The translations under genes and the position numbers were made by a program. From a virus: a stretch of DNA of 20,742 bases. The stretch covers positions 1 through 20,742 of the IMG/VR virus record IMGVR_UViG_3300010430_000534, one strand, 5' to 3'. Shown here piece by piece: positions 5,335 through 20,652 of the stretch. How positions within the stretch are numbered: the first letter of the stretch is position 1; each line of letters opens with the position of its first letter. The notes below the pieces were generated by a model, which saw only the letters and a list, made by a program, of their open reading frames with translations, ran no database searches and had not been told where the DNA came from.

Positions 5335-5503
5335 AGGTATGTGTCGGGAGGGGAAATACGAGGCAATCGTAGCTCTCCTCCAAGTACACCTTGAAGAAGC
5401 TATGACTAGATGTGCTACAACCCAGACGGATCATAGGTTTATACAAGGTAAATTCCAGGGGTTACTTGACTTCATGGAAGACATAACTAAGCAATCTAAA
5501 TGA
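5291..5503 (+). CDS. Small protein overlapping the portal gene, function unknown
   Basis: The gene encodes 70 mostly helical, charged residues (MPKERLSKEELKRLKGMCRE at the start). It begins inside the portal gene in another frame, with GGGAGG at 5276-5281 nine bases before ATG 5291, and runs 169 bases past the portal stop. The good ribosome site and the non-overlapping remainder argue that it is real. Its TGA stop is also the first triplet of promoter-like motif copy 3. It is probably co-translated with portal. A head-assembly accessory role is suggested only by context, and I do not recognise a family. Confidence 0.7.
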   Translation: MPKERLSKEELKRLKGMCREGKYEAIVALLQVHLEEAMTRCATTQTDHRFIQGKFQGLLDFMEDITKQSK

Positions 5504-5526
5504 TATAGTAATAAAGAAAGATTAAC
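5499..5526 (+). promoter_or_regulatory. Promoter-like motif copy 3, before scaffold and capsid
   Basis: AATGATATAGTAAT at 5499-5512 matches copy 1 base for base, followed by AAAGAAAGATTAAC, which resembles the tail of copy 2. It overlaps the stop codon of the preceding small gene and opens the 182-base gap before the scaffold and capsid genes, which need the highest expression. The promoter role is inferred. Confidence 0.5.
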
Positions 5527-5680
5527 TTGTGTGTTAATTTTGGTATGGGTTTTATTAACCTAGTTATTAATTTTATTTGGATCGCCCCCAACCGGAAGAA
5601 CTCATCTGTCCTTAACTACAACCTGCCGAGGGCGTAGTGAGATCACAGTGGAAGCTAGTACGGTGGGACCGCGAGAGGAG
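5521..5680 (+). other. Scaffold/capsid mRNA leader with 5' hairpin
   Basis: The gap between the small gene and scaffold starts with a perfect hairpin, ATTAAC (5521-5526) and GTTAAT (5533-5538), right after the promoter-like motif. An AT-rich stretch with two TTATTAA copies follows up to about 5580. The rest is of mixed composition and has possible pairings CGCCC (5583-5587) with GGGCG (5630-5634) and CGGT (5661-5664) with ACCG (5668-5671). The scaffold ribosome site GAGAGGAG lies at its end. A 5' hairpin on the mRNA of the capsid genes could stabilise the transcript. No open reading frame or tRNA is visible here. Confidence 0.35.
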
Positions 5681-5685
5681 ACAAC

Positions 5686-6723
5686 ATGAGTGATGGGCTA
5701 CAACAGAAGCAAAGACTGTCCAAGTTAGATGAGGATATAGCTAGGATGGAGGCAGAAATCTACGGAGATGCTGCCGAACAGGAGAAACAAGTATTGGGTG
5801 ACGATGAAGTTACCGATCCTGATCAGTCTACTGAGCCAACTGAGACATTGACGGATGATCCTTTTGAGACAGTAACCACTGATGAACATACTCAGCCCGA
5901 TAGTGGTGAGCTTGCTAAACTGCGTAGAGAATATGCAGAGTTAGAGCACCGAGCTAACCGTTACAAAGGCAAGACTGACCGTACCATTTTTGACTTACGT
6001 GGTGAAGTTGGTAGGCTTAACAAGTACGTTGCCAACTTACAGAAGGCCAAGACCGAACTCCAAGCAAAGCTCGATGAGCGCGAAACAACGCTTGATGAGG
6101 ACCAACGAGATATCCTCGGGGAAGATGCTGCTAAGATCATTGAGAACTTACAGAAAGAACTGAGAGAGATTAAGAGGTCCAGTGAGGTTAAGGAAGCTTC
6201 TGACTTTGAAGAGAAAGCCGAAGACTACAAAGTTGCTAACTCAACGGAGTTCATGGATAACCTGAATCGATTAGTACCTGATTTAGATGATATGAACAAA
6301 GACCCAGAGTTCAACGAATGGCTACGTCAAGAAGATGACTACGGTATCGAAAGACTTGCAACCCTTCGTAGCGATCAATCTCGCGGAGATTACGTGAGAG
6401 TCGCTCAGTTTTTTGATGAGTACAAAGCTCAGAAGGCAACGCTAGATACAGTTAAGAAGGACGCCAAGTTCCCTGATTCAACTGATGCTTACGCTGGCCC
6501 CACTGGGACCAAAGGAGATTCTTCTACTAAGCAGATTAAAGAGAGCAAGGATGGCTGGATCAAGCAGTCCGAGATCAATAAGTACGAGAAAGAAGTCATG
6601 GCTGGAAAGTACAAGTATGATTCATCTGTACCGGAAGCTATGGAGGCTCGGATATTCAAGGCTTCAATGGAAGGTAAAATTCACGCAGACGCACCTCCGC
6701 TACGTAGTTTTAAGGTGCGATAA
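5686..6723 (+). CDS. Capsid scaffolding protein
   Basis: The 345-residue product is very acidic at the N-terminus (rich in D, E, T and P in residues 30-75) and has a strong coiled-coil region at about 75-170 (for example LAKLRREYAELEHRANRYKG). A segment LVPDLDDMNKDPEFNEWL near 205 is of a kind often seen in phage scaffolds, and the C-terminus is basic (RSFKVR), which suits binding to capsid protein. It lies between portal and major capsid protein, the standard scaffold position. It would guide procapsid assembly and leave or be lost before DNA filling. No protease motif is seen, so it does not look like a protease-scaffold fusion. GAGAGGAG precedes ATG 5686. Confidence 0.87.
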   Translation: MSDGLQQKQRLSKLDEDIARMEAEIYGDAAEQEKQVLGDDEVTDPDQSTEPTETLTDDPFETVTTDEHTQPDSGELAKLRREYAELEHRANRYKGKTDRTIFDLRGEVGRLNKYVANLQKAKTELQAKLDERETTLDEDQRDILGEDAAKIIENLQKELREIKRSSEVKEASDFEEKAEDYKVANSTEFMDNLNRLVPDLDDMNKDPEFNEWLRQEDDYGIERLATLRSDQSRGDYVRVAQFFDEYKAQKATLDTVKKDAKFPDSTDAYAGPTGTKGDSSTKQIKESKDGWIKQSEINKYEKEVMAGKYKYDSSVPEAMEARIFKASMEGKIHADAPPLRSFKVR

Positions 6724-6752
6724 CCCATTTTCACAAATAAGAGGTAATTAAC

Positions 6753-7721
6753 ATGGCTGGTCCTGCTAGCGCACGATACGGTTCTGATGGAACCATTCAA
6801 TATAATCCTTTGCTGTTCTCCAGTAAAGTCATGCGTCTTTTCACTGAGATGTGTGTAGCCAACGAAATCTGTAACAACGATTACGAAGGCGAGATTAAAA
6901 ACAAAGGCGATCAAGTACAGGTTCGCGTAGCTCCTACTTACGTTACTGTAGGTACCTATGCTGTCGGTACTCCGATCAACTACGCCACTCCTGGCGAAGA
7001 CGCTCGTACCCTGAACATCGATCAGGCTAAATACGTTGCGTTTAAAGTAGACGATGTTGACGCTGTACAGTCTGACCTGCAGCTGATGAGCATCTTCGCA
7101 GAACGTGCAGCTCTGTCTGCCAAGATCGACACCGACTCTGCAATCCTTACCTACATGAAAGGTAAAGCGTTTGCTGGTGCTCGTGAAGGTATTGATGGAA
7201 ACGACATCAATGCAGCTTCCTCGGGTAACCTTGGAACCGCTGCTGGCGTAGTTTCTGCTTCCTTCAACTTGGGAGAAACCGCAGGTGCAATCACCATTAC
7301 GGCTGCTAACGCCACCGACAAGATCGTTGATCTCGGTGCTGTACTGTCCGAGCACAACGTACCGGATGAAAACCGTTTCGTAGTCATCCCCAACTGGTAT
7401 GCTGCTATGTTGAAGAAGTCTGATCTCAAAGCAGCTAACATCACTGGTGATGGCAAGTCGGTTCTCCGCACTGGTCTCATTGGCGAGATCGATAGCTTCA
7501 AGGTATACAAGTCTAACTTGGTACCGACCTCCTCTGATACTGGTCTTAAGTACCACGTATTTGCTGGTGTGAAGAACGCTACCACTTTCGCAAGCCAGAT
7601 CAACAAGTCTGAGACTGTCCGTAGTCAGGATCAGTTCGAAGACCTCTGGCGTTTACTCCTGCTGTACGGGCGCGAAGTCATTCAGCCCGAGGCTCTTGCA
7701 GAACTCTACTGTAATCCTTAA
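6753..7721 (+). CDS. Major capsid protein
   Basis: The 322-residue protein fits an HK97-fold coat protein of the P22/N4-gp56-like group. An N-terminal arm (SSKVMRLFTEMCVANEICNN) is followed by a segment typical of the family (GDQVQVRVAPTYVTVGTY), and the end has the pattern YGREVIQPEALAELY. Residues around 145-185 are G/A/S-rich and may be a surface loop. Codon use sets it apart: all 11 arginines are CGN (seven CGT, three CGC, one CGA), with many CTG, ATC and GGT codons, as expected for the most abundant virion protein. GAGGT at 6741-6745 lies seven bases before ATG 6753, and a terminator follows directly. A 291-codon reading frame on the other strand is a by-product of this codon bias. Confidence 0.93.
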   Translation: MAGPASARYGSDGTIQYNPLLFSSKVMRLFTEMCVANEICNNDYEGEIKNKGDQVQVRVAPTYVTVGTYAVGTPINYATPGEDARTLNIDQAKYVAFKVDDVDAVQSDLQLMSIFAERAALSAKIDTDSAILTYMKGKAFAGAREGIDGNDINAASSGNLGTAAGVVSASFNLGETAGAITITAANATDKIVDLGAVLSEHNVPDENRFVVIPNWYAAMLKKSDLKAANITGDGKSVLRTGLIGEIDSFKVYKSNLVPTSSDTGLKYHVFAGVKNATTFASQINKSETVRSQDQFEDLWRLLLLYGREVIQPEALAELYCNP

Positions 7722-7727
7722 GCAGCA

Positions 7728-7743
7728 GCTAGTCTAAACTAGC
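7728..7743 (+). other. Small hairpin between capsid stop codon and terminator
   Basis: GCTAGT at 7728-7733 and ACTAGC at 7738-7743 form a perfect 6-bp stem with the loop CTAA. It begins seven bases after the capsid stop and ends three bases before the terminator stem. It may protect the capsid mRNA 3' end or reinforce termination. Confidence 0.5.
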
Positions 7744-7745
7744 GC

Positions 7746-7786
7746 AAACCCCCAGTGATCCTAGCGGTTGCTGGGGGTTTTTCTTT
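7746..7786 (+). terminator. Intrinsic terminator after the major capsid gene
   Basis: AAACCCCCAG at 7746-7755 pairs perfectly with CTGGGGGTTT at 7771-7780. The intervening bases TGATC and GGTTG can extend the stem with A-T, C-G and G-T pairs, leaving the loop CTAGC. A T-rich run (TTCTTT) follows. This is a strong rho-independent terminator by all visible criteria. It separates the capsid gene from the tail genes, whose own promoter-like motif starts 28 bases later. Confidence 0.93.
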
Positions 7787-7813
7787 GTCCTACCCATCCC
7801 TCCTTCTCGTTAC

Positions 7814-7840
7814 TGAAATAATAGTAAAGGATAAATTCTA
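7814..7840 (+). promoter_or_regulatory. Promoter-like motif copy 4, before the tail genes
   Basis: TGAAATAATAGTA at 7814-7826 is identical to copy 2, followed by AAGGATAAATTCTAC, similar to the other tails. It lies between the strong terminator and the ribosome site (CGGAGG, 7841-7846) of the connector gene. Transcription of the tail genes needs either read-through or a new start here, which makes a promoter role likely for this copy in particular. Confidence 0.6.
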
Positions 7841-7852
7841 CGGAGGTTCTAA

Positions 7853-8530
7853 ATGAATTTCAGAGAACTCGCAACTAAAGTAAGGATTCACTCAGGATTC
7901 CAGGGAAGGATTTCCAGTGTTGATTCTGGAGACTTCACTGAGTATCTTACTGAGGCTATACGGTCTTCATGGGTAGACCTGCAGAATCAGAGGGAAGACT
8001 GGAAGTTTATGTGGGAGAGAGCTACACTCACTACTGATATAGGCCAGCATTTCTACAGCAATGACGATATCATGGATGGTCTCAGCAACGACTTCGGAGT
8101 AGCCAAGTGGGACCGTTCTTCCTTCCTTCGGGACGGTGAGCAGATCGAAGAGATCAGTTATGAGACTTACTTGCTAGAGAAGGACACCTGGGATGAGAAA
8201 GGTACAGGTATCTTTGCTGTCAAAGAGTTTCGTACTGCTGGCTTAGTACTGCCTACTCCTCTAGCCCAGGCAGATATTGAGGCATCCTACTACAGGACTC
8301 CTCAGATACTTACCAACAACACAGATATACCTCTTCTACCTGAGGAGTTCCACTACTTGATAGTATGGAAAGCTCTGGAAGACTTGGCATCTTACGTTGG
8401 GAACCCTTCTATCTACGAGAGACATAGCTATAAAGCTGACATACTCGAGAACAAACTGATGAGGTCTCAGGTACCTGCAAAGACAATCAAGAAGAGACCT
8501 ATCTATAAAGCTAGACGATACTGGGGTTAA
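7853..8530 (+). CDS. Head-tail connector/adaptor protein (podovirus type)
   Basis: The 225-residue product begins MNFRELATKVRIHSGFQGRI, followed by a helical segment ending LQNQREDWKFMWERA. This start and the W-rich motif are characteristic of the adaptor that binds under the portal ring in short-tailed phages. A mid region of beta character and a helical C-terminus with a basic end (KTIKKRPIYKARRYWG) complete it. It follows the terminator and promoter-like motif and opens the tail operon, with CGGAGG (7841-7846) six bases before the start region. The nozzle gene follows two bases after its stop, so the two are probably made together in the required ratio. It may equally be called tail tubular protein A. 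Confidence 0.82.
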   Translation: MNFRELATKVRIHSGFQGRISSVDSGDFTEYLTEAIRSSWVDLQNQREDWKFMWERATLTTDIGQHFYSNDDIMDGLSNDFGVAKWDRSSFLRDGEQIEEISYETYLLEKDTWDEKGTGIFAVKEFRTAGLVLPTPLAQADIEASYYRTPQILTNNTDIPLLPEEFHYLIVWKALEDLASYVGNPSIYERHSYKADILENKLMRSQVPAKTIKKRPIYKARRYWG

Positions 8531-8532
8531 TT

Positions 8533-11136
8533 ATGAGAAGAAGGAACAATATATCCTTTCCTCGAACTAACAGTAAGACAGTAGTATATACTGGAGGAGT
8601 CAATGAAGGTATCACTAACCTTGAACTTGGTGCTGGTGATCTATTCCAGTGCTATAATTATGAGGAGATAGATGGTGCCTTTCACGGATACAGCTCAGTC
8701 GAAGGATACGAAAGATACGATGGTCAGTCTTCTCCATCAGACGTACCAGTGGAGTTCCTTGAGGACGAGGGTAATGATGCTTACGCAATCGTACTACTTG
8801 AATCACAAACCAGTGAAGACATCACGGATAAATCAGAGTCGGATCGAGTTACTACACAGAGTAATCTTAGCTACTCCTCGGCACGTCTGCAATTCGGAGA
8901 AGGAAGTTGGTATTTCAACAACTTGGTCTCTTGTAACTGGACCTGTGATCTATCTGATGAGCCTATTGACTTCGCGACTGAAGTCTATACTCTCGATGGA
9001 GTTGTCCAAACAAACGACATCTTCTTATCCACAGTTGTTGTCGCAGAAATCTCAGGTGTCATCAAAATCACTTTAGAGGAAGGAATCACTCACGTATACC
9101 TTACTACCTCATCTGGTGTAGAGGAGTTCGTTGGTACCTCCCTGGCTAACTCAGGTAGATGGTACTTCCTCTCTGTAGTCGTAGAGCCTAGCGCAACTAC
9201 TTGCGATGTGTACATAGGGCTGAACGGTAACGTAGATAGCTTCACCTCTACTGGAGCAGGGGTACATGCAGCTAGTGATCTGGTAATAGGAGATGGTGAC
9301 AACTCTGATAAAGACTTGTATGTAGATACCCTCCGTCTTAGTAACGTAGCTAGGTGGAAATCTACTGTAGAGTTTGCATACACGATGGACTACCCTTTCA
9401 GTGACTACAGATACTACGTATTCAACGCTGATGATGCAGATAGAGAGACTGCTAGAGCTTTGATAACGGAACTTGAAGAGACACCAGACCAGTGCCAGAA
9501 CGGTGTACGAGATGTACACATCTATCAAGGTAAGGCATACGGAGTAAGAGACAAGACTGGTGGTGCTTCTGGAGGTATCTTCGAAGAGAGTGCCTCAGGG
9601 TGGGCAGAGTTGACTAACACCAGATATACCGTACCCTACATCGAAGGAACTATACCAAGCACTGACCTTATCTCAAGGAGTGGAGAGGCATGGACTGCTT
9701 CAGGTGGAGCTACAGGTACAATAGAGTTCGTCACTATAAACACTGGTGACTACACTTCTGGTACTCCTGCAGACCAAGCAATAGGAGCAGCAATAGTCAC
9801 AGTAGCTACAGGTACACTTGGTACAGGAGAGACTGTTACATTAGACAGCTACGTTACAGAGCTGTTCAAGACTTCAGCTGCAGCCTCCCTAGTATCTGTA
9901 GGGGCAGGATCAGATGTTGACTTCACTGATGGACGTTTTGCTTACTTCCCTGGTGGTGCTCCGAATACTCACACTATGTACTTCGTAGCTAACCAGCCTG
10001 GTATATTCTATTACAGTAATACAGAGCCTCTAGGGTTCATAGCTGGACCTGACGGTATAACTGACAACCCTACCCACGTAGTTCTATTCAAGGATAGATT
10101 GTGGCTAGTGTATCCGAACGGACACATGTTCTACTCAGCTCCTGGTGATCCTACCCAGTGGTCTGCAGAGTTTGGAGCAGGAGAAATATTCTTCGGTGAC
10201 GAGATAACTAACGCAGAAGTTGCTCCTGGCGATACGATGGCAGTCACTATGGACGAGACTATCAAGCTTCTGAAAGCTCAGCCACCTACTACTGCAACGA
10301 TTGATTACCCGTTCAGTGTAGAGGACTTCTCTACTTCAGCTGGTGCATACGAGCACTCTATAGCAAGTCTCTTGGGCGATCTGTACTTCTGCGATGATCG
10401 TGGTCCTACTAGCATGACTCAGGTAGATGCAGCTGGTGACTTCGCAATGGGTGATCTTAAGAAGAAAGCTCATATCACTTATCAGCTTTACAAAACCTCG
10501 TTTGTAGGAGCTTTTGTACAGAGGAAGAAGTCACAGTACAGAGTACACTTTCACGATACTGCTACTGAATCCACTAAGATCATCATCTACACTTTCAGTG
10601 AGAAGAAAGTAAAAGGAGTAACCCTAGCTGAATACCCTGTAGTAATGAGCAGGTTCCATGAGGATGAAGATGCAGACGGTAACATATTCATCGTAGCTGC
10701 TGGTGCTGATGGGCACGTATACAAGCTAGAGACAGGGGCATCTTTCGATGGAGAGATCATCGAGACCTCTATGAAGACAGCTTACTACCACTACGGTACC
10801 CCGAGATTGTGGAAGAGATTCTATCGTGTCCTCTTTGAGATTACCTCCGCGAACAAGATGGTATTCGAAATCCGGTCAGACTACAACTACTCAAGTTCCG
10901 CTTTGATGTCCTCTATACAGAGGGAGATTCAAACAGCTGGACAGGGTGGTGTCTGGGGAGCTTCGATCTGGGGTGACTTCATCTGGGGTGGTGCTATTAT
11001 CAGTAACCCAATGCTGTATTTAAACGGATACGGTGTCAACATGAGTATAGAAATAGCTACCTCTAGTAAACACCATGAGCCACACACATACCACAACATG
11101 GTTGTAGACTATGCCAACGGTAGCAGGTTCATGTAA
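8533..11136 (+). CDS. Tail nozzle/tubular protein B-like with an inserted LamG (concanavalin A-like) domain
   Basis: The 867-residue protein should form the hexameric nozzle at the end of the short tail. The N-terminus with GYERYDGQSSPSDV (about residues 58-71) and the long beta-rich remainder from residue 290 fit the podovirus stabilisation/nozzle family, including HVVLFKDRLWLVYPNG and the ending HTYHNMVVDYANGSRFM. Between them, residues of about 83-290 look like a separate laminin-G/concanavalin A-like lectin domain. It has the ordered features SARLQFGEGSWYFNN, SGRWYFLSVVV, DVYIGLNGNV, DLVIGDG and DTLRLSNVARW, which match the usual fold signature (fG.gs.yf, W..lsvv, vyvNG, iDe.Ri...aRy). 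The domain would lie on the outside of the tail and could bind host surface glycans. The ribosome site is a weak GGGG at 8523-8526 in the end of the connector gene. Confidence 0.83.
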   Translation: MRRRNNISFPRTNSKTVVYTGGVNEGITNLELGAGDLFQCYNYEEIDGAFHGYSSVEGYERYDGQSSPSDVPVEFLEDEGNDAYAIVLLESQTSEDITDKSESDRVTTQSNLSYSSARLQFGEGSWYFNNLVSCNWTCDLSDEPIDFATEVYTLDGVVQTNDIFLSTVVVAEISGVIKITLEEGITHVYLTTSSGVEEFVGTSLANSGRWYFLSVVVEPSATTCDVYIGLNGNVDSFTSTGAGVHAASDLVIGDGDNSDKDLYVDTLRLSNVARWKSTVEFAYTMDYPFSDYRYYVFNADDADRETARALITELEETPDQCQNGVRDVHIYQGKAYGVRDKTGGASGGIFEESASGWAELTNTRYTVPYIEGTIPSTDLISRSGEAWTASGGATGTIEFVTINTGDYTSGTPADQAIGAAIVTVATGTLGTGETVTLDSYVTELFKTSAAASLVSVGAGSDVDFTDGRFAYFPGGAPNTHTMYFVANQPGIFYYSNTEPLGFIAGPDGITDNPTHVVLFKDRLWLVYPNGHMFYSAPGDPTQWSAEFGAGEIFFGDEITNAEVAPGDTMAVTMDETIKLLKAQPPTTATIDYPFSVEDFSTSAGAYEHSIASLLGDLYFCDDRGPTSMTQVDAAGDFAMGDLKKKAHITYQLYKTSFVGAFVQRKKSQYRVHFHDTATESTKIIIYTFSEKKVKGVTLAEYPVVMSRFHEDEDADGNIFIVAAGADGHVYKLETGASFDGEIIETSMKTAYYHYGTPRLWKRFYRVLFEITSANKMVFEIRSDYNYSSSALMSSIQREIQTAGQGGVWGASIWGDFIWGGAIISNPMLYLNGYGVNMSIEIATSSKHHEPHTYHNMVVDYANGSRFM

Positions 11137-11165
11137 ATGTATCTGAGAAACATTCTGGGGATATA

Positions 11166-12845
11166 ATGGGAACATATTTTGATCCGACAGGACTATCAGT
11201 AACTGATGGCGAGACTGCTAAAGCTAGTGATGTTAATGCCTTTCTCACCGAGACTGATGCTGCATTCGATGTAGCTGAACAGGATATTGCTGCACTATCT
11301 GGTAGGGGTGAAGCCTGGGCAGAGAACGATCCATACGATCCAGTTACTATTGGTAAGTACTCTGCGAAACACTGGGCTACATTAGCTGAAGATTGGGCCA
11401 TAGGTACACCTACAGATAACGATGGGGTACCTACTGGTGATCAGTCAGCTAAGAAAGAGGCAGAGGATGCTGCTGCTGCTGCACTTGCTGCTTCGACTAG
11501 CGAGACTAATGCAGGTAATAGTGAGACTGCAGCTGCTGGCTCCGCTCAGGATGCAGAAGACTGGGCTGAGGCTATTAAGGGAACTGGTGACCCTGGTATT
11601 ACTAATGCTTCGGCAAAGGTATGGGCAGAAGAGGCAGAGGACAGCGAAGTAATAACAGGCTCTGGATTATACTCTGCGAAACACTATGCAGCCAAAGCTG
11701 CTACCTCAGCTAGTAATGCTGCAACTTCAGAGAGTAACATATTCGGAATAGAGACCACAGTAGAAGGGTATAAAGACGATGCTGAAGCTGCAAAGACAGG
11801 AGCAGAAACTGCTAGAGACTTCGCTAATGCCTGGGCCACTGAGCCTACTAATCAGATCAACGATGGAGTTAATGCACTAGACTACTCCGCAAAGTACTAC
11901 GCTAACTTAGCAGGTACATACCAAGCTCAAGTAGAAGCGGAAGGAGATACACAAGTAGCTAGGGTAGCTCAAGAGGGTTCAGATCAGTACGACTACATCA
12001 ACACCCTGGATGCTATCCTTAAGAACGATGGCGATACAGGTGCTGCAGGAATCCCCGCAGGAACTACGGTGGAAAGACCAGCTATTCCCAGTACAGGTAA
12101 CCTCAGGTTCAATACTACCTCAGGTGACTTCGAGGGGTACAACGGGTCCACTTGGGTCCAGCCAGGTACAGGAGCCTCGGTAACAGGTATCCCCGTAGGA
12201 GCTATTGTACCGTTCATTGGAGGTTACTTCGGAGATGGAAGCAACGGTACCTTTACTAGTGTACTAGGCAACGATGTAGCTACTGTTAATGCCCTTCTGA
12301 ATATCGATGGGTTCTATGTGTGTGATGGCTCAGCTCTTAACCTGACAGCTTCTCCTATATTCAACGGAGCTGGAAGATACCTCCCTAACCTTACAAGTGA
12401 TATCTTCTTAATGGGAGACACTGCAGCTGGAGTAACTGGTGGTGTAAATACTGATAGTCATCAACACTACGGTCCTGCTCATACCCACGATATGGGAGAT
12501 CATACTCACTCAGTTGATCCACCATCTACTGGAACCAGCTCTACAGGTTTATCATCTAACTACAACGGTAGTCATACACATAGCCAGATGGGTAAATCTT
12601 CTGGTGGTTGGGATTTTGACTATGGTTCTCGGTCTTTCTCTGATGATGTCAACACTAACACAGGCAGTTCTGGCTCTGGCTGGGGCCACTCCCACTCAGT
12701 AAACATAGGAGCATTCACATCAGGTGCAGGAGGCCTTGGTGTTGAGACAACTACATCAGGTACTGCAGAGACTTCAGGAAGGACAGGCAATACAGAGAAT
12801 AGACCTAACTTTCTCACTTGCTTGTATATCATGAGAGTTCTATAA
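11166..12845 (+). CDS. Tail fibre with collar domain and His-rich tip
   Basis: This 559-residue fibre has several parts. Residues 1-50 are an anchor (YFDPTGLSVTDGETAKASDVN) homologous to the start of the giant fibre at 13747. An Ala/Ser-rich shaft at about 55-265 carries the repeated motif YSAKHYA/YSAKYYA. A neck motif at about 289-336 (LRFNTTSGDFEGYNGSTW) comes next. A phage tail-collar domain starts near 342 with IPVGAIVPF and continues with DGFYVCDGSAL and YLPNLTSDIFLMGD. The tip is rich in HxH pairs (HTHDMGDHTHS, HTHS, HSHS) and ends in ENRPNFLTCLYIMRVL. In T4 gp12 similar HxH motifs coordinate iron in a trimer, and by analogy this tip may bind metal. It is likely a trimeric short fibre. 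The ribosome site is only a weak GGGG at 11157-11160. Confidence 0.87.
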   Translation: MGTYFDPTGLSVTDGETAKASDVNAFLTETDAAFDVAEQDIAALSGRGEAWAENDPYDPVTIGKYSAKHWATLAEDWAIGTPTDNDGVPTGDQSAKKEAEDAAAAALAASTSETNAGNSETAAAGSAQDAEDWAEAIKGTGDPGITNASAKVWAEEAEDSEVITGSGLYSAKHYAAKAATSASNAATSESNIFGIETTVEGYKDDAEAAKTGAETARDFANAWATEPTNQINDGVNALDYSAKYYANLAGTYQAQVEAEGDTQVARVAQEGSDQYDYINTLDAILKNDGDTGAAGIPAGTTVERPAIPSTGNLRFNTTSGDFEGYNGSTWVQPGTGASVTGIPVGAIVPFIGGYFGDGSNGTFTSVLGNDVATVNALLNIDGFYVCDGSALNLTASPIFNGAGRYLPNLTSDIFLMGDTAAGVTGGVNTDSHQHYGPAHTHDMGDHTHSVDPPSTGTSSTGLSSNYNGSHTHSQMGKSSGGWDFDYGSRSFSDDVNTNTGSSGSGWGHSHSVNIGAFTSGAGGLGVETTTSGTAETSGRTGNTENRPNFLTCLYIMRVL

Positions 12846-12854
12846 GGAGGAACC

Positions 12855-13076
12855 ATGCAAAAGTACAAAGTGAAATATAGATTACATGGAAGGAGATTCT
12901 TCAAGACTTTAAAGAATGTAGTAGGAGATGGGATGGAAGGTAACTTCAGGTTCTTTGCCCTGGATGATGAATCCTTGATCCATGTCCCTTGGGATACTGA
13001 GGTGCGGTTCTCTAAAGAAAGGGCTGTAGCTATTAGAGAGAAGATGAGTAAACAAGCTGGACAACCAATAGTGTAG
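12855..13076 (+). CDS. Small protein between fibre genes, function unknown
   Basis: The 73-residue product starts MQKYKVKYRLHGRRFFKTLK and is basic at the N-terminus. A very good ribosome site (AAGGAGGA, 12844-12851) overlaps the stop of the collar fibre, so it is translated from the same message. It shows no membrane segment or signal peptide. The alternation of short hydrophobic and charged stretches (GNFRFFALDDESLIHVPW) suggests a small mixed alpha/beta protein. A fibre accessory or assembly role is possible but rests on position only. Confidence 0.7.
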   Translation: MQKYKVKYRLHGRRFFKTLKNVVGDGMEGNFRFFALDDESLIHVPWDTEVRFSKERAVAIREKMSKQAGQPIV

Positions 13077-13083
13077 GTGCGGA

Positions 13084-13722
13084 ATGAATAACAAGAGTAA
13101 GATAAAGCCAGGGATGTACGAGCGTATATGTGTAGTCCCTGATGACCGTCTAGTTATTGTAGATGATTTTGGTGCCTATCTACCAGAGGAAGACTTCGCT
13201 CAGTTCGAGCCAGACCTTAGGATGATATCCTATTGGGGTCTTGACACTGCAGAGATGGAGTACCATACTCACGAAAGGTTCAACGATATTATAGACAACA
13301 TAGATTTCTTAGAGCCTCTGGTACTTAAGGTGCTGGAGATCAAGGATATAGAAGAGAAGAGAAAGACTGATCCTCTCTACGGATATGAAGGAGAGGAGCT
13401 TAAGGAGAAGAAGAAAGAGAAGGACAAGGAGAAGAACGCAGAGGAATATACAAATAAGATCAGCGGTTACATCGTTGTGAACATACCGGAAGGAACCTTC
13501 AAGTCTAGGATCAGACGAGACATCCTTCTGAACATGCTTATATTCATCGACACTGCACGATATAACCTCTCCCCTACTGCCACCCTCTTCGACTCTGACG
13601 ATGAGCCTATGGTCATGTCAGTAGCCTCAGCGACAAGAGTACTTGCAGAGGCTGGTAAAGCTCTCGAGGAAGCAACATACGAGAAGATTACCAAAGACAA
13701 AGAAGTAGATACAAGAGACTAA
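13084..13722 (+). CDS. Hypothetical protein in the fibre cluster, possible fibre accessory or assembly factor
   Basis: The protein has 212 residues. The N-terminal half contains LVIVDDFGAYLPEEDFAQFEP and an acidic segment. Residues of about 95-125 form a highly charged K/E stretch (EELKEKKKEKDKEKNAEEY), probably an exposed helix or linker. The C-terminal half (SGYIVVNIPEGTFKSRIRRD onward) looks folded and mixed. It lies seven bases after the previous gene and 24 bases before the giant fibre. The ribosome site is poor (GTGCGGA), so translation may depend on coupling. Fibre genes often have chaperone-like partners nearby, but no recognised chaperone motif is visible, so this role is only a guess. 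Confidence 0.7.
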   Translation: MNNKSKIKPGMYERICVVPDDRLVIVDDFGAYLPEEDFAQFEPDLRMISYWGLDTAEMEYHTHERFNDIIDNIDFLEPLVLKVLEIKDIEEKRKTDPLYGYEGEELKEKKKEKDKEKNAEEYTNKISGYIVVNIPEGTFKSRIRRDILLNMLIFIDTARYNLSPTATLFDSDDEPMVMSVASATRVLAEAGKALEEATYEKITKDKEVDTRD

Positions 13723-13746
13723 TTAATTTGATACAAGGAAAGCTAA

Positions 13747-16700
13747 ATGTCAAATAGATACTTCACAAAGACAGGGCTTGAAGTTATTGACGGTACGCTA
13801 GCTCAAGGGAAGAACGTCAATCAGGTAACTGATGAGACTGACTCTGCGTTTGATTTAGTACAGGGCGAGATCGATACTATACAGACGGTTGCTAACGATG
13901 CCTATAAGTGGGCTAATAACGACCAAGGTGATGAACCTAAGCCTATTGAGCATCCTGATGAGTACTCTGCCAGAGCTAACGCACTAGAAGCTGAGGGACA
14001 TGCTAGCGGTACAGAAGGTGTGTCTACTAGAGCAGATGGTGTAACTGTTATCCAATACACTGCGAAGGATAGAGCACAAGCTGCTAGAGATAGTGAGCTA
14101 GAAGCTATAGCCTCCGCTGCAGCTGCTCTTGCCTCTGAAACCAAAGCAGAACAGTGGGCTACCTACACAGGTGGTACGGTGCCTGGAGAGGTAGAATACT
14201 CTGCCAAGTACTACGCACAGCTCTGTGTAGCTTACTCCGATTCTGCTGCTGCTTCTGCAAGTGCTGCAAGTACCTCTGAAGGTAATGCCCTAGCTAGCGA
14301 ACAAGCTGCTGCTCTCAGCGAAACTAATGCAGGTAACAGCGAGACTGCTGCAGCTCTTAGTGAATCTAATGCTGCCGATAGCGAAGCTGCTGCTGCTCTC
14401 AGTGAATCCAACGCTGCAACTTCTGAGGCTAACGCACTAGCCAGTGAGCAAGCTGCTGAAGCTGCATTTGATGATTTCGATACAAGGTACCTCGGTGCTA
14501 AAGCAAGTGACCCTACACTGGATAACAATGGTGATCCACTAGCCGAAGGAGCCTTGTACTTCAACACTACATCTGATGAGATGAGGGTGTATGACGGAGG
14601 CTCTTGGACGGTAGCTTATGTACCAGCTGGAGATTATATACTCAAGAGCGACATCGATGATACCCCAGTTGACGGAGTAACGGATGCTCCTATCTCCAGT
14701 AACTGGGCCTATGACCACGAGAACGCTACAGCACCTCATGATGGTGTTGTTGTTCCTCAGGACTCCGACACCGGAGCTGCCAGTATACCTGTAGGTACTG
14801 AGGCTCAACGACCTGGCACTCCTGCTTCCGGCATGTTCCGATTCAACACTGACGATCAAGTCTTCGAGGGATATGACGGAACAGACTGGGACACCATAGG
14901 AGGCAGTGTCCAATGGCAATCTCCGATGGTTGGAACTGCTGACCTATTTATAAACGGTGACTTCTCTGATACAGACCTTAGTGACTATATCAATCCAGGT
15001 GCAATAGCTGTAGTTGAGAATGGCGAACTTAAAGTAACTAGAGATGCTCAGTGGTACATAGCACAGGCAGTAACTGTAGAGATAGGCCGTACCTACGTCC
15101 TTAGAGGAAAAGGTAGACCATCTCCCACTAATGACGAGTGTACGTTCAGGGCTGGTACCACAATAAGTATTGGACAATACTTAAACCTATCTGCCACTGA
15201 TGATACACAGATGACTACGATGCAGGGGGAGTTCGTAGCCACTAGCACAACTTGCTACGTGACTCTCGGTGCTGGTAACGCAGGCGATAAGACAGTATAC
15301 TATGACGATATCGAGCTATACGATAAGGCTGGAGCTTATGGTGCGGAAATAACTGCTGAAGCTGGCAAGGGATATCCTGTAATTTTAGGACAGAGTATTC
15401 TCCTTCCAGCCACTCCACGTAACGGAGATGTTGTAGCGGTAATGGATCATGGAGATAACTTCCACCTTGAGCCGTGTGTCGTAGACCCGAATGGTGAAAA
15501 CATAGATGGTTATGGGTCTGGAGACTTTACACTCTCCGGTAGAGGGACCTGTGTGTACTTCACCTACATAGAGGATAAGTGGCAGATAACCTCGCTCACT
15601 CCTTCCAGTGCTGTACTGAAAGACTCCGACACAGGTGCTGCTCAACTTCCTGCAGGTACTGCAGCTCAGAGGCCTGGCACTCCTGCATCTGGTATGCTCA
15701 GGTTCAACGATGATGATGATACCTTTGAAGGGTATGACGGTACTGAGTGGGGAGCTATAGGTGGTGGTGGTGGGGGTGGGGGTGGACTCGCATGGTCTGG
15801 ACCTTACCCTCAGGACGTAGAATCAGGCACCATAGTTGCTAATAGTTACTACCTAGTAACCTTCCAGATCACTGAATACACCTCCGGTTCTGTAACTCCT
15901 ACAGTGGGTGGAACCTCAGGGACCGCACGTAATGCAGTTGGTGTCTGGCAAGAGGTTATACAAGCTACGAACACTAATGCCTTTGCATTCAGTGAGTCTA
16001 GCTTTGTAGGTACCTACGGGACTGCCACAGTCTTTGAGGTAACTGACAGTTCTGGCTCTGCCTACGTGGATGTAGATGCTGAGGATACAAATGGATACTC
16101 GTTGAGATGGGGAGTGACCCTCGTGTTACCTGCCAGCCCTACAGATAATCTGCAAGTGGGCTTCAAGGATCATGACAATAGCTTCCATACGGTGCCTAGT
16201 TACATAGACCCCAATGGTAATGAGGTTGAGGGCGAAGGTACTGGACTCATTAAGCTGGACTCGAAGGGTCAGGCAGGGGTTCTTACTTACATAGACGATA
16301 GGTGGCTGTATACTGATAGTACACCTTTTGCACCTGTAGTCGGTAAGCCTCTGATGCATGTACAGGATATACAGCCAGAAGACACAGCAGGCCAGTCACT
16401 AATCGTAGGAGATACCACAAGGAACCTGACCAGTGTGATAGTAAATGAAATTTCTGGTGCTTCTCTGGTAAACAATACTGTTACGCTACCTGCTGGCGAG
16501 TATTGGATTGAAGCCGAAGCAGCGGTGAATTGCATTAACACTGCTGCTAATGATGGCTTCAGGAACTTCATTGAGGTTGATGGAGTTAAGGTACTCTCAA
16601 GTAATTCAAGTAACGTATCCTACCACAACGCTGTCGATGCCAGTATTTCTGGACGGTTGGTACTTACCGAAGCATCTGATATAACCATAGTCACCACATC

Positions 16701-18477
16701 TAAGTCATCTGTTCCTACAGCTGGGAAACCTAATGACATAACAGGGCAACCGGAGAAGTACGCAGACCTACGCATCTGGCAGATCGACAGGGACATCCAG
16801 AAGTATACTGTCAGTGATCCAGAGAAGTACCTGAAGAAGCCTTTGTTCAGAGCAGAACACATTACAGCTAGTGCTCCGTACATACTGCCCACGGGTACAT
16901 CAGATATTGTGTACAACACGACACCTGTGAATGAGATACCAGGAGCATCTTTAAGTGGTTCTTTGATTACGCTGCCTGCTGGTGAGTACGAGATTCAGGT
17001 TGTTAATCCGAGGCATGGAACAAACAGAGGTACTGTTTGGATAGCCGATTCGTCAAACAATATACTATCTCCACAGTTAGGCGCGTCTGATGGTACTTTC
17101 TACGTAACATTTAGCCATCGTCTCGTTCTAGCTTCTGAAACAACTATTAAAGTCAGGAAAAATATCGGTGCAACAGCCTCTGATCTTGATGTTCTTACTG
17201 GGACACTAGTAGAGCAGATCAGCATCTGGCAGAATGATGCAGTCATGGAGGATTCTATCATCTCCGTGCCTAATCCTGACAAGTGGCTCAAGCAGCCCAT
17301 GTTGCAAGTGGCTCACATTGAACCCTCTGCAACAGATGGTGGTACCTCAGTTTCTGGTGACAACACTAGAACCCTCAATACCGTAATCACCAACGAGATT
17401 ACTGGTGCTTCATTAAGTTCCAATCAGGTAACTCTACCGGCTGGGGAATACTGGTGTGAAATTGATGCGAGTGCTAGTGGTAGTACGGACCCTTTGCAGG
17501 GCCAGCTGTTAGACGCAAGTGATGATTCGGTCCTGTTAACAGGTATACCTGTAAGGCCTGAGGCGTTCAAAAACCAGACAGTTACTATATCTGGCAAACT
17601 CACATTCTCGACAGCAACCGCAGTATACATCAACACTTACATTGGTGGTAGTGGGGTAGCGGATACTGGACTCGGATATCCTGCAGGTTCAGGGGAAGAT
17701 AACCGTTACGTTGTAGCAAACTTCTGGAGACTAGACGCAGTAGTCCAGCAGCCTAGAATCCATAAGCAAGCTAACACTGCTATCTCAGGTGCTTATGTAA
17801 CTGGTGATATCTTTGGTGGTGAATTGATCTATAGCACTGCCTCAGCCTTCAACGTGGCACCTGTTAGTTGTATGTCTGATGATTTGACTACAGCACTGTT
17901 CATCAACACGCAGACTGGAGTCACCATGACCTCTCCAGCTATCAACACGATCTACAATGTGTTCATCGTGAAGTACACTGGAGATACATACGGTATAGAG
18001 TACGATACAGATATAGATGGTGCAAATCTTCCAGGCACTGTAGTTGCTCAAAGGTGGCTAGGTGTTATATGGATAGACTCTAGTGGTGACATTATAAAGT
18101 TTAAGCAGAATCAGGATTTTGTCCGGTTCCTGAGTCCTGGCGATACTAAGATAGGCTCTGGGTTTACAAGTGCAAACTGGACAGCACTGGATATATCTAT
18201 ACTCCCAACCGCTAGGATCAGAGAAATTCATTTCCTGCCTGTATCAGACACCGCATCAGCAACAACTATGAGTTGGGGGTGGAGCAACTCTGAGAATATG
18301 AGTGATGGTTCTTCTCAAACTGCTACCACAACAAACATCAGTGACGGGTATACTACTAGCAGATTTTCGACTAACTGGACAATAGTCCCACTGAGTGCTC
18401 CAACGACTTTGTATATTAGAGAGCATGGTTCTTATGCTGGCAGTGTATCTGCTTGGGGCCTTAAGCTTAAACGATAA
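13747..18477 (+). CDS. Giant modular tail fibre with carbohydrate-binding-like and receptor-binding modules
   Basis: This 1576-residue fibre is built of clear modules. Residues 1-50 are a virion anchor homologous to the collar fibre. Residues of about 100-242 form an Ala/Ser-rich coiled-coil shaft with 14-residue repeats. Neck motifs (RFNTDDQVFEGYDG type) lie near 339-388 and 625-674. Residues 399-528 resemble a carbohydrate-binding module of the galactose-binding fold (DLFINGDFS to YYDDIELYD). Residues 531-624 and 769-866 are two copies of a beta module containing DH..NFH/SFH and DPNG. A poly-Gly hinge lies at 672-680, and a module with YLVTFQITEYTSGSVTPTVG at 681-768. Three beta-sandwich receptor-type modules (867-1030, 1031-1182, 1183-1340) and a C-terminal domain shared with the next gene finish it. 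Trimerisation is likely. AAGGAAA precedes the start. Confidence 0.9.
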   Translation: MSNRYFTKTGLEVIDGTLAQGKNVNQVTDETDSAFDLVQGEIDTIQTVANDAYKWANNDQGDEPKPIEHPDEYSARANALEAEGHASGTEGVSTRADGVTVIQYTAKDRAQAARDSELEAIASAAAALASETKAEQWATYTGGTVPGEVEYSAKYYAQLCVAYSDSAAASASAASTSEGNALASEQAAALSETNAGNSETAAALSESNAADSEAAAALSESNAATSEANALASEQAAEAAFDDFDTRYLGAKASDPTLDNNGDPLAEGALYFNTTSDEMRVYDGGSWTVAYVPAGDYILKSDIDDTPVDGVTDAPISSNWAYDHENATAPHDGVVVPQDSDTGAASIPVGTEAQRPGTPASGMFRFNTDDQVFEGYDGTDWDTIGGSVQWQSPMVGTADLFINGDFSDTDLSDYINPGAIAVVENGELKVTRDAQWYIAQAVTVEIGRTYVLRGKGRPSPTNDECTFRAGTTISIGQYLNLSATDDTQMTTMQGEFVATSTTCYVTLGAGNAGDKTVYYDDIELYDKAGAYGAEITAEAGKGYPVILGQSILLPATPRNGDVVAVMDHGDNFHLEPCVVDPNGENIDGYGSGDFTLSGRGTCVYFTYIEDKWQITSLTPSSAVLKDSDTGAAQLPAGTAAQRPGTPASGMLRFNDDDDTFEGYDGTEWGAIGGGGGGGGGLAWSGPYPQDVESGTIVANSYYLVTFQITEYTSGSVTPTVGGTSGTARNAVGVWQEVIQATNTNAFAFSESSFVGTYGTATVFEVTDSSGSAYVDVDAEDTNGYSLRWGVTLVLPASPTDNLQVGFKDHDNSFHTVPSYIDPNGNEVEGEGTGLIKLDSKGQAGVLTYIDDRWLYTDSTPFAPVVGKPLMHVQDIQPEDTAGQSLIVGDTTRNLTSVIVNEISGASLVNNTVTLPAGEYWIEAEAAVNCINTAANDGFRNFIEVDGVKVLSSNSSNVSYHNAVDASISGRLVLTEASDITIVTTSKSSVPTAGKPNDITGQPEKYADLRIWQIDRDIQKYTVSDPEKYLKKPLFRAEHITASAPYILPTGTSDIVYNTTPVNEIPGASLSGSLITLPAGEYEIQVVNPRHGTNRGTVWIADSSNNILSPQLGASDGTFYVTFSHRLVLASETTIKVRKNIGATASDLDVLTGTLVEQISIWQNDAVMEDSIISVPNPDKWLKQPMLQVAHIEPSATDGGTSVSGDNTRTLNTVITNEITGASLSSNQVTLPAGEYWCEIDASASGSTDPLQGQLLDASDDSVLLTGIPVRPEAFKNQTVTISGKLTFSTATAVYINTYIGGSGVADTGLGYPAGSGEDNRYVVANFWRLDAVVQQPRIHKQANTAISGAYVTGDIFGGELIYSTASAFNVAPVSCMSDDLTTALFINTQTGVTMTSPAINTIYNVFIVKYTGDTYGIEYDTDIDGANLPGTVVAQRWLGVIWIDSSGDIIKFKQNQDFVRFLSPGDTKIGSGFTSANWTALDISILPTARIREIHFLPVSDTASATTMSWGWSNSENMSDGSSQTATTTNISDGYTTSRFSTNWTIVPLSAPTTLYIREHGSYAGSVSAWGLKLKR
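14269..14436 (+). repeat. Four 42-base units coding for 14-residue Ala/Ser coiled-coil repeats
   Basis: Units at 14269-14310, 14311-14352, 14353-14394 and 14395-14436 encode variants of the pattern xxSExNAxxSExAA (for example ALSETNAGNSETAA). Each unit is exactly 42 bases, so changes in copy number keep the frame and only lengthen or shorten the fibre shaft. The peptide SETNAGNSETAAA also occurs in the shaft of the collar fibre (about 11503-11541), with very similar DNA. Confidence 0.85.
15760..15786 (+). repeat. Nine-glycine tract (GGT/GGG run) in the giant fibre
   Basis: Four GGT codons are followed by GGG GGT GGG GGT GGA, coding for nine consecutive glycines at residues 672-680. It separates the end of a neck motif from the next beta module, so it is likely a flexible hinge. 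The triplet run could change length by slippage without changing frame. Confidence 0.85.
16345..17766 (+). repeat. Three tandem receptor-type beta modules in the giant fibre
   Basis: Copies begin at 16345, 16837 and 17293 with KPLMHVQD, KPLFRAEH and QPMLQVAH. Each holds the core NEI(S/P/T)GASL followed about 8-10 residues later by TLPAGEY, and the first ends IWQID and the last FWRLD. Copy length is about 152-164 residues. The pattern is that of a jelly-roll module common at the tips of phage fibres, with some resemblance to C1q/TNF sandwiches; the fold is inferred. The middle copy is the most divergent at its start. Confidence 0.85.
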
Positions 18478-18483
18478 AGGAGA
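18471..18483 (+). repeat. 13-base direct repeat at the giant fibre stop codon (copy 1)
   Basis: ACGATAAAGGAGA spans the last arginine codon, the stop and the ribosome site of the following gene. The identical 13 bases occur at 20646-20658 at the end of the next fibre gene. The repeat could come from duplication of the whole 3' domain plus ribosome site. Confidence 0.8.
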
Positions 18484-18489
18484 TTAACT

Positions 18490-20652
18490 ATGAGTAGAGT
18501 TCAAGATGTATTCGGTGGGTCTCCTAAGACTGTGCTGAATAAACCGTTCATGCATGTACAAAATCGACAAGCCCAAAACACTGCTAGAGGCTCTTCTTCT
18601 GCAGGAGCTAATGATCGCTCTTTTAATACTACGTTGGTTAACGAAATACCTGGAGCCGTAGTAAGTGATCCCTATATCAGCCTGCCTGCGGGAGTTTACT
18701 ATGTTGAAGGCATGGTCCCAGGACAAGATACTGAAATGTACAGGGCCGAGGTACATGATGATGGTGGCACTCAGTTGCTAATAGGACCAAACCGGTACAT
18801 AGCTGGAGCCTCCCATTCTTCATCGGCTAAGGTAGCTGGGCAGATAACACTGTCGTCAACGGCTAATATTAAATTGGTTTCTAGGCATGGAAAGGCACTT
18901 GCTGCTTCTGGACTAGGGACACCTTTCAATCAGCCTGTAGAAGTTTATGAAGATTTTAGAATCTGGAAGCTCGATGAGGCCATTGAGACCGTAGTCAAGC
19001 AGAACCCTCTGTACAAAGAGATCAGACCTCTGATGCATGTGCAGTACCAAGAAAATATTGGCGTAGTTGGTGACACAGTACCGAGTGGGCTTGGAAGACG
19101 GCCACTGAACACTACTTTGATCAATGAGATTTCCGGTGCCTCATTATCTTCTGAGGTTATCACTTTGCCAGCTGGTGAGTACGAGATAGATGCTACCACC
19201 GTGTTAAGAGCCGGTGCAGCCGATGCTGCAAGATACACATCCACCGGAATCAAAAGAGACTCCGATGATGTAACACTTTTACGGGGATTGAACGCTGGGC
19301 CAAGGAATGCCCATGAGATGCACCATGCAATAACATCAGGTAGGTTCACCCTTTCGGTTGAAACCGATGTCTACCTCTATACGTATACAACTGCTGCATC
19401 GCAGACCATAGCTGCTTGCAGTGAGACAGGATCAAATGAAGTCTACGCTGACGTACGCATCTGGAGAGTTGACGCACTGAAGACCATAGAGTCCTACGGT
19501 GACTCAGAGCTTACACTGGCTAGGCCTTTTATGCATGTGCAGGATCAGAAGACTAATGGTACTAGTGGAGGAGCTTCAGTAACTAGTTCGCAACTTAGAG
19601 ATTTAAATACTGTACTTACTAATGAGATCAGTGGAGCATCTTTAAGTTCAGATGAGATTACACTGCCTGCTGGAGAATACTATATAGAAGCCTACTCACA
19701 ATGTTACAATACATCCGGAAACAGGCTTTTGATAGAGGACACATCATCAACTCAGTTACTGTTAGGTACATCAATATATGCACACCCTACAGGAGTAGCA
19801 AGGAGTGTTCCAGTTTCAGGTAGAGTAACATTAGCTTCCACCACAGTGATACGAGTAAGGCACTATACACAAGCAGTCTCCGCTAATGGTCTTGGAGTAC
19901 CGGAAGCTTCTACACTGAGTGATGATGAAGTCTACACGGATATTAAGATATGGCAGATAGACGCAGTTACCCAGACTCCAGTACTGATAAATGATAAACT
20001 CTACCCACTGCCAGGAAACACTATAGTCACTGGCAATATGCATGGGCTTGAGTATGCCTACAATGGAACCAGTAGTGTCACAGTACAGCCTGGAATCTGC
20101 ATGGACTCTCTGAATAAGGAGATACTCTGCTTACCTAGTGCTGTGAACGTTACGATAGGCACTACGATCAATGAGATATACAATCTGTTTATCTGCAAGA
20201 CCTCGGCTGGTGCTGTCAGTGTACAGACGGACACCGATGTTAACGGTGCGAATCTGACAGGGACCTATGATTACTTCAGGTGGATAGGGTTTGTAGCTAC
20301 GAATAGCTCTGGGAATGTATATGAGTTTAACACTAAAGAAGACTACGTGTCATATCCATTAAGCACTTCCGCACCCAGTCTTGGTACAGTATCAGGAACT
20401 ACTACCTTTGATATATCAACAGTACTGCCAGCAGGGAGAATTGCTATGCTTCTCCCAGCGAGTATAGGACAGAACACAGGTAAGCTCACCCATTGGTATA
20501 ATACCAGTGATGCCACTGATAAACTTTCTTATCAGAATTCCTACTATGGTTTTTCAACTTTATGGCTAGTTCCAGATGATGATAAGATTAAAGTTTTGGC
20601 TAGTGGATGGACACCAGTGGTTTACGTAGCTGGGGTCAAACTCAGACGATAA
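18490..20652 (+). CDS. Second receptor-binding fibre/tip protein, paralogous to the 3' half of the giant fibre
   Basis: The 720-residue product starts almost at once with three copies of the receptor-type beta module (residues 18-178, 179-344 and 345 to about 500). It then has the same C-terminal domain as the giant fibre (about 501-720), recognisable by the shared pattern D.NGANL.GT....RW.GF/GV and the ending KLRR versus KLKR. It has no anchor, no coiled-coil shaft and no neck motif. It therefore cannot join the virion the way the first two fibres probably do. It may cap or branch from the giant fibre, or attach through its first 17 residues. AAGGAG lies just before ATG 18490. It is a gene of its own rather than a frameshifted remnant, because module borders are complete and it has its own ribosome site. 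Confidence 0.87.
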   Translation: MSRVQDVFGGSPKTVLNKPFMHVQNRQAQNTARGSSSAGANDRSFNTTLVNEIPGAVVSDPYISLPAGVYYVEGMVPGQDTEMYRAEVHDDGGTQLLIGPNRYIAGASHSSSAKVAGQITLSSTANIKLVSRHGKALAASGLGTPFNQPVEVYEDFRIWKLDEAIETVVKQNPLYKEIRPLMHVQYQENIGVVGDTVPSGLGRRPLNTTLINEISGASLSSEVITLPAGEYEIDATTVLRAGAADAARYTSTGIKRDSDDVTLLRGLNAGPRNAHEMHHAITSGRFTLSVETDVYLYTYTTAASQTIAACSETGSNEVYADVRIWRVDALKTIESYGDSELTLARPFMHVQDQKTNGTSGGASVTSSQLRDLNTVLTNEISGASLSSDEITLPAGEYYIEAYSQCYNTSGNRLLIEDTSSTQLLLGTSIYAHPTGVARSVPVSGRVTLASTTVIRVRHYTQAVSANGLGVPEASTLSDDEVYTDIKIWQIDAVTQTPVLINDKLYPLPGNTIVTGNMHGLEYAYNGTSSVTVQPGICMDSLNKEILCLPSAVNVTIGTTINEIYNLFICKTSAGAVSVQTDTDVNGANLTGTYDYFRWIGFVATNSSGNVYEFNTKEDYVSYPLSTSAPSLGTVSGTTTFDISTVLPAGRIAMLLPASIGQNTGKLTHWYNTSDATDKLSYQNSYYGFSTLWLVPDDDKIKVLASGWTPVVYVAGVKLRR
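18541..19989 (+). repeat. Three tandem receptor-type beta modules in the second fibre
   Basis: Copies begin at 18541 (KPFMHVQN), 19024 (RPLMHVQY) and 19522 (RPFMHVQD). All carry NEI(P/S)GA and (S/T)LPAGEY or PAGVY cores and end in IWK.D, IWRVD and IWQID. ATGCATGTRCA recurs at DNA level at each module start, as it does at 16354 in the giant fibre. Sequence between the cores differs strongly from copy to copy, as expected for surface loops that bind different ligands. Confidence 0.85.

Follow-up and report, generated by a model that had tools for sequence, protein, structure and literature searches.

Two adjacent genes of an uncultivated phage end in paralogous tips, each made of three tandem copies of one module followed by a common C-terminal domain (CTD). 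On balance, we consider it probable that these are multi-module adhesin tips, that of the first protein (gene A) anchored by a stem and that of the second (gene B) joined through a short peptide, and that both serve as exchangeable cassettes. The evidence for this reading comes from the homology of the tips, the architecture of the genes, the movement of tip cassettes among relatives and the predicted fold of the module; trimerisation, ligand binding and the docking of protein B are what we infer beyond these.

The two fibre genes and their surroundings

The window, by which we mean the whole stretch of DNA analysed, is a 20,742-base IMG/VR fragment of an uncultivated tailed phage that encodes a terminase, a portal protein, a P22-like coat protein, a neck protein and fibre proteins. 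Gene A (13,747-18,477, on the plus strand, as are gene B and the parts of both genes given below) is an open reading frame of 1576 aa with matches to PHROG tail fibres (E 2.5e-28 over aa 103-301), and it runs from an N-terminal stem through three modules to the CTD. Gene B (18,490-20,652; 720 aa) has no stem: an N-terminal peptide of 17 residues leads directly into three modules and the CTD. The tail fibre family phrog_24210 matches gene B with E 5.8e-45 and gene A with E 1.8e-22, in either case over three stretches that correspond to whole modules.

Directly after the stop codon of gene A begins a Shine-Dalgarno-like AGGAG (18,478-18,482, plus strand), situated 7 nt upstream of the ATG of gene B, which itself starts 12 nt past that stop codon. 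Given this motif at good spacing, the sequence makes translation of gene B likely.

The stem of gene A harbours an internal duplicate of 161 nt (14,748-14,908 and 15,609-15,769; 71% nucleotide identity), with the repeat unit DSDTGAA...RPGTPASGM.RFN...FEGYDGT at the protein level. A similar stretch is present as a single copy in a third fibre gene of the window (11,166-12,845; 559 aa), which has its N-terminal start (TGLxVxDG...) in common with gene A. In place of modules, this third fibre has a His-rich tip (DSHQHYGPAHTHDMGDHTHS), so that the phage seems to carry at least two kinds of tip.

Another contig (L106, IMGVR_UViG_3300027980_000122) is 99.97% identical to the window over 11.4 kb (3 mismatches; window positions 4,012-15,378) and ends at position 15,378, inside gene A and upstream of the modules; an assembly break at this point would fit variation of the tip region within the population. 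The searches, in which genomes were scanned for two short patterns, found no prophage or plasmid relatives.

Six copies of one module

The earlier note on this DNA had described six copies of one module, divided equally between two neighbouring genes, and both profile search and alignment bear this out. In gene A, the copies are A1 (16,345-16,794; aa 867-1016; profile E 2.9e-27), A2, the shortest and most diverged (16,837-17,244; aa 1031-1166; E 8.4e-12), and A3 (17,290-17,739; aa 1182-1331; E 3.7e-31); in gene B, they are B1 (18,541-18,975; aa 18-162; E 1.3e-31), B2 (19,024-19,476; aa 179-329; E 5.8e-31) and B3, the least diverged copy, which adjoins the CTD (19,522-19,962; aa 345-491; E 2.7e-44). 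The profile was built from the modules of other contigs alone, with the window left out, and it recovered all six copies at E values of 8e-12 to 3e-44 (42-148 bits), the top match among 2000 shuffles of both proteins reaching 10.6 bits. Pairwise, the six copies are 26-40% identical, with shuffle Z-scores of 10-40.

The conserved core NEISGASL...TLPAGEY with variable stretches is as had been noted. The length of 152-166 residues originally given for the module agrees with the start-to-start spacing (151-166 aa), whereas the domain itself measures 136-151 aa. The proposed KPLMHVQ-type start can be clearly recognised in A1, B1, B2 and B3; in A2 (KPLFRAE) and A3 (KQPMLQV) it is degenerate.

Predicted fold of the module

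In an AlphaFold monomer model of B3 together with the CTD, pLDDT is about 97 across the module. A Foldseek search of the PDB with the B3 model returned APRIL, CD40L, F-BclA, gC1q and TNF, all at a probability of 1.00, and a BFVD search returned phage fibres at an rmsd of about 1-1.7 Å (for example, Synechococcus S-RIP1 at 1.7 Å). By its matches to APRIL, CD40L, gC1q and F-BclA, the model is a jelly-roll beta-sandwich, and the module is, as judged from this predicted structure, a TNF/C1q-like jelly-roll domain. Since Pfam yielded no match to the module above the cut-off and the PDB sequences no credible one, its membership in the TNF/C1q group is a matter of fold, not of sequence. We put the PDB sequence matches with antibody, usher and flavivirus chains down to chance or to linkers.

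The N- and C-termini of a jelly roll sit at one pole, so that tandem modules would probably protrude as lateral knobs rather than stack upon each other; coaxial trimers are perhaps not formed by all of the tandem TNF-like domains.

A common C-terminal domain

The CTDs of gene A (17,740-18,474, ending in LKR) and gene B (19,963-20,649, ending in LRR), of about 230-245 aa each, are homologous (Z = 25), and, as each is preceded by three modules, genes A and B are paralogous in their distal halves. No credible match to the CTD was found in Pfam, PHROGs or 50,697 phage records, and a fold search of the PDB gave no match below E 0.001; nor was an S74-type intramolecular chaperone/peptidase domain recognised in the CTDs with Pfam, PHROG or PDB folds. 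We consider the CTD to be a hitherto undescribed fibre domain.

CTDs occur in few contigs only and are diverse across them (21-53% identity), as is the number of modules that precede them: none in L032, L033 and L035, one in L006, L013, L034, L036 and L090, and three in the window. The module-free CTD fibres L032 and L033 lie at both ends of one contig of 142 kb (IMGVR_UViG_3300035698_017437), and their presence in this much larger phage indicates that the CTD is shared by phages of very different types.

Recurrence of the two-gene layout

The N-terminal peptide of gene B, MSRVQDVFGGSPKTVLN (18,490-18,540), conforms to the motif M[ST][RK]xx[DE]xF, which is present in 8 of 857 ORFs (five distinct), every one of them a module protein encoded by a second gene. 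These second genes belong to five distinct contig groups, namely the window, L006, L036, L055 and L090. The gene order in L036 and L090 is like that in the window: a fibre with stem, module and CTD is followed by a stand-alone gene that consists of a short N-terminus, a module and the CTD. The layout of L055 has two genes without a CTD, and that of L006 starts with a stem gene devoid of a tip. Thus, the second protein is without an anchor and carries a short conserved N-terminal peptide, the arrangement expected of a branched receptor-binding protein. A sequence search with Pfam gave no match to a T4gp10-like docking domain in gene A.

In L006, an HNH-endonuclease-like gene (5,270-5,950) occupies exactly the interval that separates the stem gene without a tip from the stand-alone tip gene; it is possible that this endonuclease drives tip exchange. 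Module genes are paired in other phages as well: in L009 (5,096-6,444) and L063 (2,026-3,398), two genes with one module apiece overlap in head-to-tail orientation, and the second module gene of L009 has a different short N-terminus (MPLSKILSDSLASGVGQ).

Tips and modules among the relatives

The census of the module covered 97 loci with 108 module-bearing proteins. A single module is the rule (103 of 108 proteins); two modules are scored in three proteins, that of L030 by a split and partial match, and three modules in only two, both of them from the window. In 95 of the 108 proteins, the module forms the C-terminal end.

The fibre of L013 has a stem like that of the first gene of L090, with a tip that is 74% identical in amino acid sequence to the second gene of L090; nucleotide identity in the flanks is 87-90%, and the first-gene tip of L090 is only distantly similar. 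Similarly, L031 and L032 are 88% identical in nucleotide sequence from the boundary between module and CTD onwards, and nothing upstream of it can be aligned. These are comparative signs that, in the relatives, tips have probably shifted between genes and between phages and that modules were gained or lost in front of the CTD. The view that the modules are a substrate for recombination thus gains comparative support from the moved tips and from the module number of zero, one or three. The homology of the CTDs, the module census and the recurring two-gene layout go beyond the earlier note.

Age of the copies and variation of the loops

A tree had been proposed as a means of finding out which copies duplicated first, but a tree of 76 modules did not resolve this order. 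It contains no supported clade that holds all six copies of the window, and a single clade is not rejected by the AU test either for the six copies (p 0.30) or for the copies of gene A (0.39) or gene B (0.08) taken separately. The partner of A1 in the tree is the only module of L034 (support 94/91), and A1, A2, A3 and B3 each score best with an outside module, above any other copy of the window. The tree and these outside resemblances mark the six copies as old and are compatible both with old duplication and with import by recombination. Recent tandem duplication is excluded for the present sequences by their identity of 26-40%, the longest stretch of DNA that all six have in common being a core of 65 nt (62-75%).

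The loops that vary most across the family also do so between the six copies (B3 residues of about 56-99 and 113-133), and variability among the copies tracks that of the wider family (r = 0.70). Between relatives, in pairs about 65-72% identical, the loops evolve faster than the core, with dN/dS of about 1 as against about 0.2, dS being alike in both regions in some pairs only; since the variable region was picked by entropy, the raised dN of the loops is partly due to construction. Neutral evolution, too, would give a dN close to dS.

Proposed function and alternative explanations

On this reading, genes A and B would code for two fibre proteins of a podovirus-like phage whose tips, paralogous to one another, are each built of three tandem TNF/C1q-like jelly rolls and the common CTD. 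Each module would combine a rigid conserved core (the strands around NEISGASL/TLPAGEY and IWQID) with variable loops, which are the probable binding surface; hence our proposal that the particle presents to molecules of the cell surface several binding sites that are related yet distinct. The multivalent receptor array that had been suggested is plausible on these grounds. The stem of gene A should fix the fibre to the tail, and the stemless protein B would probably be a second receptor-binding protein that forms a branch, attached by the short conserved peptide at its N-terminus. The tips could be viewed as cassettes that are exchanged by recombination at module and CTD boundaries, the window representing a lineage where the module count reached three in both genes. 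A further-reaching version, namely a standing two-gene exchange of tips that operates without an invertase in an uncultivated phage family, with a stem-bearing fibre gene, an adjacent docking-peptide tip gene, module-CTD cassettes that pass from gene to gene and from phage to phage, a number of modules free to increase and the window as its 3+3 extreme, is put forward as tentative.

The modules might, alternatively, be structural spacers, a string of beads that lengthens and stiffens the fibre while the terminal CTD binds the receptor and the loops vary under relaxed constraint. In the window all six modules are indeed internal, the next element being always another module or the CTD, and the CTD is terminal, common to both genes, as diverse as described above and found also without modules; the loop dN about equal to dS fits neutrality, too. 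Against the spacer stand the C-terminal placement of the module in the great majority of the proteins of the census, which is the usual position of a receptor head, and the fact that the same fold is taken as receptor-binding in other phages (PMC3909814, PMC9608196), so that we regard this explanation as rather unlikely.

Gene B might also serve above all as a genetic reservoir: its tip would be kept in reserve and transferred to the gene A stem by recombination, as in tip-switching systems, whether or not the product of gene B itself enters the particle. The fibre of L013 does resemble a first-gene stem fused to the second-gene tip of L090, and the long common CTDs could provide recombination tracts; an invertase would not be required. 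A silent cassette, however, would have no use for a start codon and a Shine-Dalgarno motif of its own, or for an N-terminal peptide conserved in relatives, and in L006, where the first gene is without a module tip, the second is the sole module gene in the stretch read; we find such a role improbable. Even less credence, indeed very little, is due to the notion that protein B, instead of being an adhesin, acts as a chaperone of assembly or as a cap by pairing with the gene A tip. A gene directly 3' of a fibre gene is in the usual position of a fibre chaperone (PMC10579305, PMC9608196), but protein B has the fibre's own module and CTD, shows no TFA-type or S74 match in Pfam or PHROG, and has loops that vary as in a recognition domain.

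Comparison with known systems

Marine phages carry hypervariable C1q-domain genes beside their tail fibres, which are candidate receptor-binding genes (PMC3909814), and in cryoconite phages C1q-like domains adjoin tail fibres (PMC7468147). The likeness to the window is one of fold and description (C1q/TNF-like, adjacent to fibres) rather than of compared sequences. The words "tandem" and "copies" are absent from PMC3909814, in contrast to the window with its three modules in each of two genes, followed by the CTD. A homologous module (34% identity) is found in a 303-aa fibre of the Sulfitobacter phages pCB2047-A/C and NYA-2014a (NC_020858 and relatives); there it is single and C-terminal, and the region read contains neither a CTD nor a second module gene. 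In the solved trimeric tail fibre gp24 of Pam3, a single TNF-like domain is followed by a glycine-rich tip, without a tandem array (PMC9608196). Work on these phages ties the TNF/C1q-like fold to the recognition of receptors (PMC3909814, PMC7468147, PMC9608196).

In KP32/KP34, K1-5 and G7C-like phages, a first, anchored protein holds a second receptor-binding protein by a short peptide (PMC6872550). The short conserved N-terminal peptide of the second protein is the likeness to the window, where it is read from the genes alone; the differences are that the second proteins of those phages are mostly enzymes and that gene A has no detected T4gp10-like domain. Duplicated domains inside phage recognition proteins are also known from the fibres of Alteromonas phage A5, with a duplicated knob (PMC10579305), and from crAssphage, with tandem BACON repeats (PMC6949934), a family distinct from the module described here. 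Unlike the window, neither has parallel triplets of one domain in adjacent genes.

Given that the tips appear swapped or moved between genes in the relatives, which nearly always have one module per gene, the window would seem to represent a known recognition device in enlarged form. It gives the hypervariable "C1q" genes known from marine phages a concrete architectural setting: a tandem array, a tip domain common to both genes, and a second gene whose peptide is of the docking type. Together with its relatives, it offers a natural series, with zero, one or three modules, with a single gene or a pair, and with the same tip placed in the first or the second gene, for measuring how valency and tip exchange affect adsorption.
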